Source: Melioribacteraceae bacterium
GTDB lineage: Bacteria; Bacteroidota; Ignavibacteria; Ignavibacteriales; Melioribacteraceae
Direction of reading: 5' to 3'
NCBI GenBank assembly: GCA_030584085.1
Contig: CP129490.1
Coordinates: forward strand, 2,575,511-2,639,510
DNA length: 64,000 bases
A model generated the notes under the pieces. The model searched no databases, had not been told where the DNA came from, and saw nothing but the letters and a program-made list of their open reading frames with translations. Positions 6,451 to 58,835 of the stretch are shown here, in pieces; positions within the stretch are counted from its first letter, which is position 1; each line of letters opens with the position of its first letter. The position numbers were made by a program, and so were the translations under genes.

Positions 6451-7044
6451 TTACTCTTTGTATATATTTTTTAATAATTTCTGAAGTTGTGTTCTTCCTC
6501 TGTTAATTCTTGATTTTACAGTACCGATTGAAAGTCCGGTGATATCAGCAATTTCTTCATATGAAAATTCTTCAACATCTCTGAGAATAACTACTTCTCT
6601 ATAAACAGGTTTTACTTTTAACAGTGCACTTTGGATGATTTTACTTTTGATATTGCTATCTGCTAATCTATCCGGTTCAAAATAAGACTTGTCCTCAATT
6701 TGGAGTTTCTTACTTTCGTCATCATCAATCGAATTATCGAGAGAGTAAATTTTCCTTCTCTTTCTTCTCTTTAATTCATTTTTAGCTAGATTACCGGCAA
6801 TAGTATAAATCCAAGTCGAAAATTTCGCAAATGATTTGTATGAGTCCTTGTTCAAGTAGAATTTTATCATCGTATCTTGAACGATATCGGTACTGGCATC
6901 GCGATCACCAACAAATCTAAAAACAAAATTGGTCAAGGGGTCTTTGAATCTCTTAACCAAAATTTCATACGCTTCAAGAGTTTCGTTATCCTGAAACTCT
7001 TTGATAAGTTCTTCGTCCGTAAATTCTGTAAGCTTTCTACTCAA
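6451..7044 (-). CDS. RNA polymerase sigma factor, ECF (sigma-70 family)
   Basis: 197 residues with sigma region 2 (DIVQDTMIKFYLN at about 58-70 and FSTWIYTIAGNLAKNELKRRKRR) and region 4 (SYEEIADITGLSIGTVKSRINRGR near the C-terminus). Regions 1.1 and 3 are missing, as in extracytoplasmic-function sigma factors. The frame opens with TTG at 7044; a stop lies four codons upstream and AAAGG precedes it by about 12 nt, so TTG is probably real. It is co-transcribed with the membrane protein just downstream, its likely anti-sigma factor. Confidence 0.92.
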   Translation of the reverse strand: MSRKLTEFTDEELIKEFQDNETLEAYEILVKRFKDPLTNFVFRFVGDRDASTDIVQDTMIKFYLNKDSYKSFAKFSTWIYTIAGNLAKNELKRRKRRKIYSLDNSIDDDESKKLQIEDKSYFEPDRLADSNIKSKIIQSALLKVKPVYREVVILRDVEEFSYEEIADITGLSIGTVKSRINRGRTQLQKLLKNIYKE

Positions 7045-55256: not shown

Positions 55257-56181
55257 AAATTAGTTTGAATGTGTCATAAGCTTCGGAAACTAATAAACCC
55301 ATGAAGATTAATGCACCACCAACGATGCCAAAATTAGTGATTTTCTCATTTAATAAAAAGAACGCGAATAACGCAGCAAAAACAAGTTCAAATGAAAAGA
55401 TAATTCCTGCTTTGGTAGGTGTGACTTCTTTTTGAAATTTTGTCTGAATCGATATGTTAATGAGTGTTGCAAGTATTCCGGTGTAAAGAAGACCGAATAA
55501 TAAATAATCCGTCGGAATTAGTTTTATTGATTCAATTGAAGTAATCTCAAAAAATAGTGTTGCAAAAAACGCAAGGACTGCAACCGTGCTGAGCTGAACA
55601 AACATCAATAACCAGAAATCATATTTACGGGATACTATATCAATAAATACAATTTGAAAAGCAAAAAATACTGCACAGAGAAGAGTTAGAAAATCACCCC
55701 AATTAAAATTTGTCCCTAGTTCAGTAAAAACAGTATAAATTGAATTTCCACCCGAACTCAAAAAAGTTAAGCCTAGAAATACTAAAAGCGTTCCAATTAT
55801 AGCACCCAGTGTCGGCGGTCGTTTTTCAATTAATAATTGCAAAATCGGGACAATTACGACTGTTGTTCCGGTAATAAAACCAGATCTAGAAGCAGTTGTG
55901 TACTTTAGTCCAACTGTTTGAGTTGCAAAACCCAAGAACAGAAAAACACCCACAAGCATGCTGCCGAATAACAATTCTTTTGTGAAAAGCTTTCTTCTTT
56001 TGTAAATAAAAGGTAATAGCAATATCGAAGCTAAAGCGAAACGTAAAGTAATGAATAACATCGGAGAAGAATCATTCAAGGATTCTTTTACTATAACAAA
56101 TGTTCCGCCCCAAATTAGTGTTGCTAAAAGAAGTGCACCTTCGGCTAAGTATTTTCTTCCGGTTGGTTCTGTGCTATTCAT
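55231..56181 (-). CDS. EamA/DMT superfamily transporter
   Basis: 316 residues, ten transmembrane helices in two EamA repeats (about 10-145 and 160-300). The entry LLLATLIWGGTFVIVKESL and the LKYTTASRSGFITGTTVVIVPIL segment are typical of the RhaT/EamA group. It exports small metabolites; the substrate cannot be named. It starts 8 nt inside era and ends 26 nt inside acyP. Confidence 0.92.
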   Translation of the reverse strand: MNSTEPTGRKYLAEGALLLATLIWGGTFVIVKESLNDSSPMLFITLRFALASILLLPFIYKRRKLFTKELLFGSMLVGVFLFLGFATQTVGLKYTTASRSGFITGTTVVIVPILQLLIEKRPPTLGAIIGTLLVFLGLTFLSSGGNSIYTVFTELGTNFNWGDFLTLLCAVFFAFQIVFIDIVSRKYDFWLLMFVQLSTVAVLAFFATLFFEITSIESIKLIPTDYLLFGLLYTGILATLINISIQTKFQKEVTPTKAGIIFSFELVFAALFAFFLLNEKITNFGIVGGALIFMGLLVSEAYDTFKLIYEQRIKKS

Positions 56182-57082
56182 TATCAGTGGAGTATCCGAA
56201 GTTTTTCAGCAAGTTTGGATCACTACGCCATTTTGGTTTGACTTTTACGTGAAGTTCAAGATAAACTTCGCGATCTAAAAATTTTTCAATAGCTGCGCGA
56301 GAAATTTTACCGAGACGTTTTATTGCTTCACCTCCTTTGCCAATTATGATCGGTTTTTGTGTTTCCCTTTCGACAATAATTGAGGCGGAAATAAAATCTT
56401 TTGCATTCTCTCTTTCTTTGAAATCTTCAATCAGTACTTCTGTACTGAAAGGAACTTCGTCTTTATAATATTCAAAAATCTTTTCACGAATAATTTCCGA
56501 AACATAAAATCTTTCATTCTCAATAGTTAGCTGGTCATCGGGATAATACTTTGGTCCGTAAGGTAAAAATGATTTAATAGTCTTAAGTAATTCTTGAATA
56601 TTAAATCCTAACTGTGCAGAAATAATAATTACATCATCAAATATATTGGTTCCTTTTACTCTATTAATCAACTTCTCGACTTTAATCTCATTGGAAAGAT
56701 CAATTTTATTAATTACAGCAATCTTCTTCGATTTATTGCTGCCAATAATTTGAATAAGATTCTCATCTTCCAAAATTTCTTTCCCATCTTGATCGGAATC
56801 TATATCAAAAAGAACAAGAAGAATATCAGCATCTTTAATTGCTTGATTGATGAACTCAACCATTTTTTGCTGAAGCAAATAGTTAGGTTCTAAGATTCCG
56901 GGAGTATCAAGAAAAATTATTTGATGAGTTTCATCAGAAATAATTCCTAATATATTTTTCCGGGTAGTCTGCGGTTTACTTGTAATTATTGATAATCTCT
57001 CTCCGATGAGCGAATTCATCAATGTGGATTTACCGGCATTCGGTTTGCCGATTATTGATACGTAACCAGATTTTGTTTTCAT
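56174..57082 (-). CDS. era: GTPase Era
   Basis: 302 residues. It checks 16S rRNA 3'-end maturation and 30S assembly. The G1 loop is GKPNAGKST at 12-20, G3 DTPG, G4 NKID; the C-terminal KH domain has IIVERETQKPIIIGKGGEAIKRLG. All motifs are intact. It ends in a 8-nt overlap with the EamA gene. Confidence 0.97.
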   Translation of the reverse strand: MKTKSGYVSIIGKPNAGKSTLMNSLIGERLSIITSKPQTTRKNILGIISDETHQIIFLDTPGILEPNYLLQQKMVEFINQAIKDADILLVLFDIDSDQDGKEILEDENLIQIIGSNKSKKIAVINKIDLSNEIKVEKLINRVKGTNIFDDVIIISAQLGFNIQELLKTIKSFLPYGPKYYPDDQLTIENERFYVSEIIREKIFEYYKDEVPFSTEVLIEDFKERENAKDFISASIIVERETQKPIIIGKGGEAIKRLGKISRAAIEKFLDREVYLELHVKVKPKWRSDPNLLKNFGYSTDNE

Positions 57083-57150
57083 AGATATTCTAATTATTGG
57101 AATGAATAAAAATAGATATCGAGGATGCGAAAGGCAATTAATTGATAAAC

Positions 57151-57672
57151 TTAACGGAAGATATTTTCCAAATTATCTTTAAATGCTTTGTGAGAATTAA
57201 TAATTATATAAGTAGCAATCAAAGTAATCAGCACTAAAATGGAGACTATTAACATCAACAAATCTGAACTGATGGAGAAATTAAATGAAGGAATTAATTC
57301 ACCGAGTCTTTCAAAAAGGTTACCAAAACGGCTTTCTTCAGAATCGCTAAAGTCGAACGAAATTTGAGTAATGCCAAAAGTGAATATTCCGAGAAATCCC
57401 GCGATGAATAAAGAAAAAATTACTCTTATAACATAATTCTTTTGAGGTTTCGATTTATAGACAACATTTAAGCGTGACATCAATTTATCTGTGAACTTAC
57501 CCGGAGCGGTTTCAAATTCAAGTTCTCTTAAAATTGAATCTGCCAATTTGAGCGCTTTTAATTTTTCCAACTCGGCCGGATTTTCAGAAATATAATTTTT
57601 CAATTCATTGATTTCGGAAACTGTCAATTCGTTATCAATATATTTATTCAATAATTCATCTATCTGTTTCAT
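57151..57672 (-). CDS. Anti-sigma factor, membrane type
   Basis: 173 residues. The N-terminal half (IDELLNKYIDNELTVSEINELKNYISENPAEL) is the helical zf-HC2-like sigma-binding module, but with no HxxxCxxC motif, so it does not bind zinc. Two transmembrane helices (about 82-107 and 139-163) follow. It overlaps the sigma gene by 4 nt, the usual arrangement for a sigma and its inhibitor. Confidence 0.82.
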   Translation of the reverse strand: MKQIDELLNKYIDNELTVSEINELKNYISENPAELEKLKALKLADSILRELEFETAPGKFTDKLMSRLNVVYKSKPQKNYVIRVIFSLFIAGFLGIFTFGITQISFDFSDSEESRFGNLFERLGELIPSFNFSISSDLLMLIVSILVLITLIATYIIINSHKAFKDNLENIFR

Positions 57673-58235
57673 AATACTTCCTCTTGATAATTATGTTTGA
57701 GTAACATATCTCTCAAAATATTTCGCGATCTATGAAGAAGAACTTTTGTATTAACTAATGATATTTCCAGAATATCACTTATCTCTTTAAGCGACATATC
57801 ATCAATATAAAACAAAATTAATAATAGTGCATTTCTCGGCGGTAAATGATCAACTAATTTCATCACATATTGTTTTACATTTTCTGATTCGGAATAAATT
57901 CTTTCGTCTTCATGACCCAATTCAAAATGATCTTCAATCGATGACATTTCTTTTTCGATTTTTCGTTTTTTACTTGCAGCCATGGTTAAACCGGTGTTAA
58001 AAGTTACTTTGTAAAACCACGTAGAAAACTTCGATTCAAACCGAAATGAATTCAATGAGCTGAACACTTTCATAAATGTATCTTGTAATGCCTCTTCCGC
58101 ATCCAAATCATTTTTAAGTATTCTCTTTAAAAGTGAGAAACCTTTATCTTTATATCGATCAACTAAAAGGGTAAAATCTCCTTTATTTCCCTTTTTGATC
58201 GATTCAATAATTTGTTCGTCGGTTAAATTCTTCAT
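57669..58235 (-). CDS. RNA polymerase sigma factor, ECF (sigma-70 family)
   Basis: 188 residues: sigma region 2 (DAEEALQDTFMKVFSSLNSF and FSTWFYKVTFNTGLTM) and region 4 (SLKEISDILEISLVNTKVLLHRSRN), with no region 3. Directly behind it lies a two-helix anti-sigma gene. Its start lies almost on the expected transcript start of its own promoter (see 58242-58276), so its mRNA would be leaderless. It likely controls itself and the divergent gene at 58428. Confidence 0.93.
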   Translation of the reverse strand: MKNLTDEQIIESIKKGNKGDFTLLVDRYKDKGFSLLKRILKNDLDAEEALQDTFMKVFSSLNSFRFESKFSTWFYKVTFNTGLTMAASKKRKIEKEMSSIEDHFELGHEDERIYSESENVKQYVMKLVDHLPPRNALLLILFYIDDMSLKEISDILEISLVNTKVLLHRSRNILRDMLLKHNYQEEVL

Positions 58236-58241
58236 TTCAAT

Positions 58242-58276
58242 ACTTTTGACAGCAATTTAATTAAATAGGTTACAAA
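58242..58276 (-). promoter_or_regulatory. ECF sigma promoter driving the sigma/anti-sigma genes
   Basis: On the minus strand TTTGTAACCT (58276-58267), 16 nt, GTCAAAAGT (58250-58242). The same two blocks with the same spacing occur on the other strand at 58366-58400. The AAC core of the -35 is typical of ECF promoters. The predicted start near 58238 is 2-3 nt from the sigma ATG (58235). Confidence 0.82.
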
Positions 58277-58365
58277 TGCTACCCAAAATTAATCTGTAAC
58301 CTCCCGGGAAAAAGCCAGTCTTAATAAGCAAAAGAAAAGCAGAAAGCGCAATTAAAATTTGATGG

Positions 58366-58400
58366 TTTGTAACCTTATTCCAGAAATATTAGTCAAAAGT
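58366..58400 (+). promoter_or_regulatory. ECF sigma promoter driving the divergent membrane gene
   Basis: TTTGTAACCT (58366-58375), 16 nt, GTCAAAAGT (58392-58400), identical in both blocks to the minus-strand copy. The predicted start is about 24 nt ahead of the ATG at 58428, which has AAGGAG 8 nt upstream. A weaker CTGTAACCT with GTC at 15-nt spacing occurs on the plus strand at 58294-58320. Confidence 0.82.
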
Positions 58401-58427
58401 TTTAGAAACAATTAGAAGGAGTATAAA

Positions 58428-58760
58428 ATGGGTTCCGAAGTAATTGTAGTTCCGATAATATTTTTTACCACCGGTGCTGTCCTAATAGCTTACTATTATT
58501 TACGTTATCGCGAAAGATCAACAATAATCGAACGAGGTTTGTCAACTGAACAAATGATGGCACTCTATAACAAAAAGCGCGATCCGTTAATAATGCTTAA
58601 AATTGGTGTTGTAGTATTCTTTTTCGGTCTTGGTTTAGGAGGCGGACTTTTAATACAAGAAATGACCGGAGTAGAAGAATGGGTTCCGTTCCTAATTTTC
58701 ACCATGACAGGTTTAGGATTTATCGTTGCGTTTTTTGTCAGCAAAAAGTATCAAGAGTAA
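58428..58760 (+). CDS. DUF6249-like small membrane protein, ECF-sigma target
   Basis: 110 residues with three transmembrane helices (about 5-24, 58-78 and 85-104). Between helix 1 and 2 is a charged loop RYRERSTIIERGLSTEQMMALYNKKRDP. It resembles the DUF6249 group. It is divergent from an ECF sigma gene and has the same promoter, so it belongs to that regulon, probably in envelope stress. Ribosome site AAGGAG. Confidence 0.85.
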   Translation: MGSEVIVVPIIFFTTGAVLIAYYYLRYRERSTIIERGLSTEQMMALYNKKRDPLIMLKIGVVVFFFGLGLGGGLLIQEMTGVEEWVPFLIFTMTGLGFIVAFFVSKKYQE

Positions 58761-58787: not shown

Positions 58788-58817
58788 AAAAAAGTCCGCT
58801 CAAAGGCGGACTTTTTT
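58788..58817. terminator. Bidirectional terminator between the DUF6249-like gene and trxB
   Basis: AAAAAAGTCCGC (58788-58799), loop TCAAAG, GCGGACTTTTTT. A perfect 12-bp stem with A/T runs on both sides serves both convergent genes. Confidence 0.93.
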
Positions 58818-58835
58818 TGCAATTCTATTATTGAT

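Follow-up and report, generated by a model that had tools for sequence, protein, structure and literature searches.

A sigma factor, an anti-sigma factor and a DUF6249 protein

Within the 64,000-nt stretch of Melioribacteraceae DNA analysed here (the window), two genes on the minus strand and one on the plus strand diverge from a gap of 192 nt, counted from start codon to start codon (58236–58427); a first-pass annotation had recognised this gap and put it at 194 nt. The minus-strand gene next to the gap (57669–58235) encodes a 188-aa protein made up of sigma2 and sigma4 domains only (Sigma70_r2 and Sigma70_r4_2, both above the Pfam cut-off), which is the architecture of an ECF sigma factor. 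A further ECF sigma homolog, with 30% identity, lies elsewhere in the window (6454–7026, minus strand). The next minus-strand ORF (57151–57672; 173 aa) shares 4 nt with that of the sigma factor, the arrangement of a cognate anti-sigma factor in the same operon, and as a query it matches beside the sigma gene in most ortholog loci.

Taken alone, the window anti-sigma protein has no Pfam match above the cut-off. A profile built from 42 orthologs (42 of 43 alignment rows, L163 being omitted) matches the RsiW structure 5wuq in the PDB with E = 5.3e-4, and at E<=0.1 the orthologs match RseA_N in 15 of 42 cases and zf-HC2 in 8 of 42. The top Foldseek match of the predicted structure is RsiW, with a probability of 1.00 yet a weak E of 0.046, and MucA is among the weak fold matches. 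We conclude that this anti-sigma factor is an RsiW homolog which, as judged from profile and model, carries an RsiW/RseA-like N-terminal helical domain of class I. The model contains helices only, including two hydrophobic ones which, from their hydrophobicity, are predicted to be membrane helices. The H-x3-C-x2-C zinc ligands that would define a ZAS domain are missing from the window protein; among the alignment rows shown, the orthologs L180, L190 and L193 retain them.

Downstream of the anti-sigma gene, era is found in 23 of 25 named relative loci examined (sigma/anti-sigma/era; 56174–57672 in the window). Because era is kept behind this pair, the sigma promoter may also feed it, and given the kept gene order, transcription under stress might run on into this gene for a GTPase of ribosome assembly.

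On the other side of the gap, the plus-strand gene (58428–58760) encodes a 110-aa membrane protein that belongs to DUF6249 (PF19762, E = 2.3e-12, 47.2 bits against a Pfam gathering cut-off of 33). Its AlphaFold2 model has three long helices and one short one (pLDDT 87.9) and matches nothing among PDB folds at E<=0.001; a literature search on DUF6249 listed a single paper, which concerns an unrelated plant gene family. Reading the sequence, we find a Shine-Dalgarno element, AGAAGGAG, ahead of the gene (58414–58421, plus strand) and an intrinsic terminator behind it, the hairpin GTCCGC-TCAAAG-GCGGAC followed by seven T (58794–58818, plus strand). This hairpin closes the transcription unit of the membrane gene and faces trxB; a pattern scan missed it, perhaps because the stem runs into the T run. 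An Rfam search gave 11 matches up to E = 1, all under their gathering scores and all over the terminator hairpin, and these were taken as chance. Together with the conservation described below, the domain and profile results back the sigma/anti-sigma/membrane-protein module that had been proposed from the sequence.

Three probable ECF-type promoter sites in the gap

The gap holds the arrangement TTTGTAACCT-N16-GTCAAAAGT twice, at 58242–58276 on the minus strand and at 58366–58400 on the plus strand. As the first-pass annotation had stated, both blocks and the 16-nt spacer agree between the copies, which gives 19 identical positions. In the minus-strand copy, the putative autopromoter of the sigma gene, the -35 element TGTAAC lies at 58274–58269 and the -10 element GTC at 58250–58248, with the ATG 12 nt on. 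In the plus-strand copy, the putative proximal promoter of the membrane gene, the same elements lie at 58368–58373 and 58392–58394, with the ATG 33 nt on. A search with a looser core uncovered a third site that had been overlooked, so that the two copies first recognised, both of them real, are part of a set of three. This site, TGTAACCT-N15-GTC = TGTAACCTCCCGGGAAAAAGCCAGTC (58295–58320, plus strand), has a promoter-like TGTAACC-N16-GTC core and stands in tandem with the proximal one, 107 nt upstream of the membrane gene. Its -35 element is back to back with that of the sigma promoter at a distance of 20 bp.

The core is ECF-like in having AAC in the -35 element, GTC in the -10 element and 17–19 nt between TGTAAC and GTC, with each copy aimed at its own gene. 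Judged by sequence and conservation, then, the sigma gene has its own promoter with an AAC-type -35 and a GTC/CGT-type -10 element, as expected for an ECF factor. A sigma-70 promoter scan gave a signal no higher than in shuffled sequence. With spacers of 14–18 nt, the two window copies are the sole matches to the block pair in the whole genome (3,742,376 bases, one contig), where the reversed control gave 0. In the 64-kb window at up to 3 mismatches the block pair matches twice, while 100 dinucleotide shuffles averaged 0.04 matches, with 1 of them reaching 2. These figures agree with the earlier judgement that chance is an unlikely source of the repeat.

Conservation within the order

Among 79 genomes of the family, a sigma ortholog was found in 59 at E<=1e-25 and was absent from 20 at that threshold, so the module is not universal. 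A search for DUF6249 in 164 genomes of the order was positive in 119. Among the regions taken from around these hits, 103 distinct ones have the sigma start intact, and 100 of them (the window's own included) also have a divergent DUF6249 gene. Outside the 100 stand L083, where the sigma N-terminus is missing, and L153, L159 and L160, where the stretch contains no DUF6249 gene; about 15 lower-scoring order-level DUF6249 genomes and the contig-end sigma genes G038 and G068 likewise lie outside the set, which is thereby tilted towards better-scoring loci. In L153, from the relative G039, the sigma gene has its promoter site in a stretch without DUF6249. In a Melioribacter relative (L083/L134, genome G056) the sigma factor is matched only at residues 142–187, the C-terminal part, while DUF6249 and the anti-sigma factor match over their full length, as if the module were decaying or had been rearranged there.

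TGTAAC-N17..19-GTC is aimed at DUF6249 in all 100 regions and at the sigma gene in 93. In the remaining 7, the sigma side reads AGTAACC or CGTAACC, and since the first base alone differs, GTAAC...GTC faces the sigma gene in 100 of 100. Two copies are aimed at DUF6249 in 44 regions, and in 33 of 93 loci the -35 element of the sigma promoter stands back to back with that of the closest oppositely oriented site, 18–21 bp away. The core is strongly concentrated: the same order loci contain 240 sites in 22,379 bp of upstream regions vs 5 in 350,643 bp outside them. The earlier assignment to ECF-type promoters with an AAC core in the -35 is thus supported both by the character of the core and by its conservation across the order. 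The bases flanking TGTAACC...GTC are far less conserved in the relatives, except for an A-rich stretch directly after GTC; given these poorly conserved flanks, the 19-base string is over-specified for searching.

A sigma message that is probably leaderless

ECF transcripts are expected to begin about 8–10 nt after the GTC. In the order set, the distance from the sigma-side GTC to the ATG is 9–12 nt in 88 of 96 sites, and with this promoter geometry the predicted leader of the sigma message is 0–5 nt. An SD-like 4-mer 4–20 nt before the sigma ATG is present in 14 of the 100 regions, which equals the background (13%). Before the DUF6249 start it is present in 91 of the 100, counting from starts that are alignment estimates. 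Because the site lies 9–12 nt from the ATG and SD signals are at background, the sigma mRNA made from its own promoter probably has its 5' end on the AUG or a few nucleotides from it, and would be translated as a leaderless message. The earlier reading overlooked this near-zero leader.

The same geometry extends beyond the order, as GTAAC-type sites across the phylum have an in-frame ATG at 8–15 nt in 32 of 32 cases (two of these loci being order members). At GAAAC and GCAAC sites, a start codon lies within 15 nt in 6 of 17 cases. Leaders are often longer in those lineages, which makes the leaderless sigma message a feature of the GTAAC type. Few of the mRNAs mapped to date in Bacteroidota are leaderless or nearly so, according to the portions of the studies consulted: about 3.7% of 5' UTRs are shorter than 10 nt in B. 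thetaiotaomicron (PMC7366714), and 5.5% of mRNAs are leaderless in F. psychrophilum (PMC9723704). In the literature surveyed, which covered titles and abstract openings and part of PMC3616915, no title or abstract opening described a leaderless, self-driven ECF factor from the Bacteroidota, a result that falls short of proving that none exists.

Matched promoters across the phylum, and a possible link to sigma residue 165

A Pfam search of 296 Bacteroidota genomes found DUF6249 in 89. Each of the 30 best-scoring DUF6249 loci has an ECF gene within its 3.3-kb stretch (30 of 30; 24 divergent and 6 same-strand), two of these loci being members of the order set. The full phylum table of 190 loci, which consists of these 30, 40 further ones and the order set, comprises 171 divergent loci, 10 same-strand loci and 9 without one of the two genes in the stretch. 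Judged from sequence, the pairing of promoter and gene recurs in many Bacteroidota families.

The second base of the -35 core (GNAAC) differs between lineages and is matched within loci. In 164 divergent loci with sites on both sides, counted by locus and not deduplicated, the base on the two sides is TT in 144, AA in 13 and CC in 2; in four more, TT is accompanied by an additional variant site facing DUF6249, and a single locus disagrees (C/A). The other divergent loci have a site on one side only (2) or none (5). The sites are matched and are conserved in sequence and position, and their agreement within each locus is nearly invariable.

Position 165 of the sigma factor, in region 4.2, tracks this base. 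In the deduplicated set of 152 sigma factors, 124 of the 129 T-type proteins have V or I there (the rest being 4 gaps and 1 Thr, in the exceptional L092, a T-type sigma), and all 13 A-type proteins have T, A or N. The residue may correspond to a -35-contacting residue of E. coli sigmaE. Residue 149 separates the -35 types slightly better than 165, and 145 and 161 do so about equally well. On a sigma tree of 84 of the 152 rows, built with residues 155–172 excluded, the -35 base changes about three times and yields 2 independent pairs, both in the direction expected for residue 165. Two pairs are not significant, and with other columns separating the types as well we do not regard residue 165 as a proven specificity residue; with so few changes on the tree the link is suggestive only. 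Residue 165 of region 4.2 is therefore best described as one candidate for -35 specificity. The matched GTAAC, GAAAC and GCAAC promoters would constitute a natural record of promoter-sigma coevolution.

The motif has no excess beyond the locus

The first-pass annotation had expected its string to reveal a wider regulon and had proposed a genome search with the two blocks as a check. That search (spacers 14–18) gave no matches beyond this locus, the full string being found here alone. With the shorter motif TGTAACC-N16..18-GTCWWA, the 57 family genomes that are at least 90% complete contain 145 sites, 87 in the gap (42 genomes) and 58 elsewhere. Outside the gap, these 58 compare with 75 in the reversed control, which is no excess for this form of the motif, weaker or variant sites being beyond its reach. 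"Regulon" is accordingly too wide a term for what the motif marks across the 57 genomes.

Searches of single genomes gave the same picture. In the window's genome, TGTAAC-N18-GTCAA with at most 1 mismatch has 75 sites vs 111 in the reversed control, TGTAACC-N15..18-GTC has 19 vs 15, and TGTAAC-N17..19-GTCWWA has 9 vs 7; in a second genome (G050) there are 5 motif sites vs 2 in the control. Among the 19, the intergenic matches upstream of ORFs are the three gap sites, one ahead of a Toastrack gene and one ahead of a 489-aa gene, putatively labelled serine-hydrolase-like from its sequence. The 9 sites of TGTAAC-N17..19-GTCWWA add one more intergenic match, which precedes a 303-aa secreted protein without a Pfam match at E<=0.01. 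The site L211 was rejected as an extra target, as it sits in coding sequence.

The best extra candidate in the window's genome is the gene for the secreted Toastrack (DUF4097) protein (G000:C1:1278508), which has a core site 28 nt upstream (G000:C1:1278453-1278482; L206, L282). Of 30 Toastrack loci, 22 have TGTAAC-N17..18-GTC upstream. In the 20 of these outside the window's species, TGTAAC is followed by T or A, vs the C usual at sigma and DUF6249. This variant -35 argues against Toastrack as a shared target and suggests that another ECF factor may read those sites. A second DUF4097 gene lies just 3' of the ECF paralog L035 on the same strand (G000:C1:3508552-3510650), an adjacency that suggests another sigma/Toastrack unit.

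Which factor reads the sites

The assignment of the sites to the adjacent sigma factor has to be weighed against the other ECF factors of the same cell, one of which could read them and so make the module a target in a cascade. The genome encodes 12 other ECF homologs, and one of these paralogs, L042 (G000:C1:3465926-3466417), has TGTAACA-N17-GTC (TGTAAC-N18-GTC) upstream of itself, so that cross-recognition, cross-talk or a cascade is possible; ECF factors with overlapping promoter use have also been described, in the part of the source available (PMC9723704). Against this, the motif tracks the sigma gene: of the 57 family genomes, the 13 without an ortholog hold 7 sites in all, whereas 42 of the 44 with an ortholog hold 87 gap sites. 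Moreover, sigma residue 165 varies in step with the two promoters phylum-wide, and TGTAACC occurs in none of the upstream regions of 9 of the 12 other ECF homologs. We therefore regard control by another ECF factor as improbable.

It is more improbable still, to a degree that we give it little weight, that the blocks serve a DNA-binding regulator as operators, or that they are a repeat arisen by chance or recent duplication. Nearby identical half-blocks can come from gene conversion or form operator pairs. The present blocks are asymmetric and each is aimed at a gene, their spacers differ in sequence but vary in length by no more than 1 nt, families across the phylum have retained the pair, and the shuffles and reversed control described above argue against chance. 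Almost certainly wrong is a reading as Bacteroidota primary-sigma promoters (-33 TTTG, -7 TAnnTTTG) with the TTTG of TTTGTAACCT as the -33 box: both window copies do start with TTTG, which occurs near -33 in Bacteroides fragilis promoters (PMC7366714, in the part consulted), yet TAnnTTTG follows neither of them, and the two bases before TGTAAC are poorly kept in relatives (commonest base 41–65%) while TGTAACC and GTC are kept. It is thus very probable that the sites are ECF promoters and that the neighbouring sigma factor reads them; this factor would in turn be held by the RsiW-like anti-sigma factor.

Comparison with known sigma/anti-sigma systems

Autoregulation of an ECF factor together with its anti-sigma factor is known already, RpoE/RseA and MucA/AlgU being the textbook cases; what is unusual here is the likely leaderless sigma message and the concerted switching of the -35 element. 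The RseA_N matches of 15 of 42 anti-sigma orthologs (E<=0.1) and the weak MucA fold match recall these two systems. The RpoE-type -35 element is GGAAC, whereas that of the module is TGTAAC.

SigW/RsiW of Bacillus is similar in its sigma/anti-sigma operon and in the profile and weak Foldseek matches of the anti-sigma factor to RsiW, and SigW is also the best-scoring NCBIfam model for the window sigma. With 111.1 of 209 bits and 99.1 of 243.1 bits on the SigW equivalog NF007223/TIGR02948, the score is far under the curated cut-off and the protein is not a SigW member. The window system differs further in an anti-sigma factor that has two hydrophobic helices and no zinc ligands, and in the lack of a wide regulon for this motif.

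Two systems from the Bacteroidota were compared as far as the consulted parts of the sources describe them. ECF21 Das/Dma of Bacteroides likewise places an ECF gene beside that of a membrane-bound anti-sigma factor; Dma, unlike the window protein, has a disordered tether and a C-terminal beta-barrel (PMC13088901), and neither appears in the helices-only model of the 173-aa window anti-sigma factor, so that the module does not belong to ECF21/Dma. The SM6 promoters of Flavobacterium psychrophilum share a CGT box in the -10 region and the link to an ECF sigma/anti-sigma operon, but extend to several further genes, among them some for type IX secretion (PMC9723704).

A probable local self-activating switch

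We have high confidence in a reading in which the gap carries three copies of an ECF promoter, all read by the adjacent sigma factor, so that the locus would act as a local, self-activating switch with a leaderless sigma message. With the same assurance, and at least for this motif, we consider the module a dedicated local device and not the head of a large regulon. Of the first-pass proposal of an autoregulated regulon, then, autoregulation is probable in view of the conservation and the matched sites, and the wide regulon falls away.

One promoter copy would drive the sigma and anti-sigma genes, possibly with era downstream, and the two tandem copies would drive the small DUF6249 membrane protein. 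In an unstressed cell, the membrane-anchored RsiW-like anti-sigma factor would bind the sigma factor; a membrane signal would free it, and freed sigma would raise its own operon, inhibitor included, plus the DUF6249 protein. Four elements of this scheme are inferred: recognition of the sites by this sigma factor, the points where transcription begins, the freeing of sigma and what the membrane protein does. The deep linkage of DUF6249 to the sigma gene suggests that the protein may be a membrane effector or a feedback partner.

A further step is speculative, and we hold it to be rather doubtful. In GTAAC-type lineages the loop might also be gated at translation: only self-promoted transcripts that begin with AUG would make sigma factor, SD-less transcripts from read-through or the primary sigma factor would make little, and DUF6249, whose gene has an ordinary SD signal in this order, would be the dedicated membrane output or feedback partner. 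If true, the self-activation loop would be closed at transcription and translation alike. Because the AUG lies at a short, fixed distance, the leaderless translation of an ECF factor can be tested directly here.

What had appeared as an isolated repeat is thus part of a module found in many Bacteroidota families, in which the sigma factor and its anti-sigma factor are open to joint experiments with the membrane partner and the promoter, and which offers a functional handle on DUF6249.
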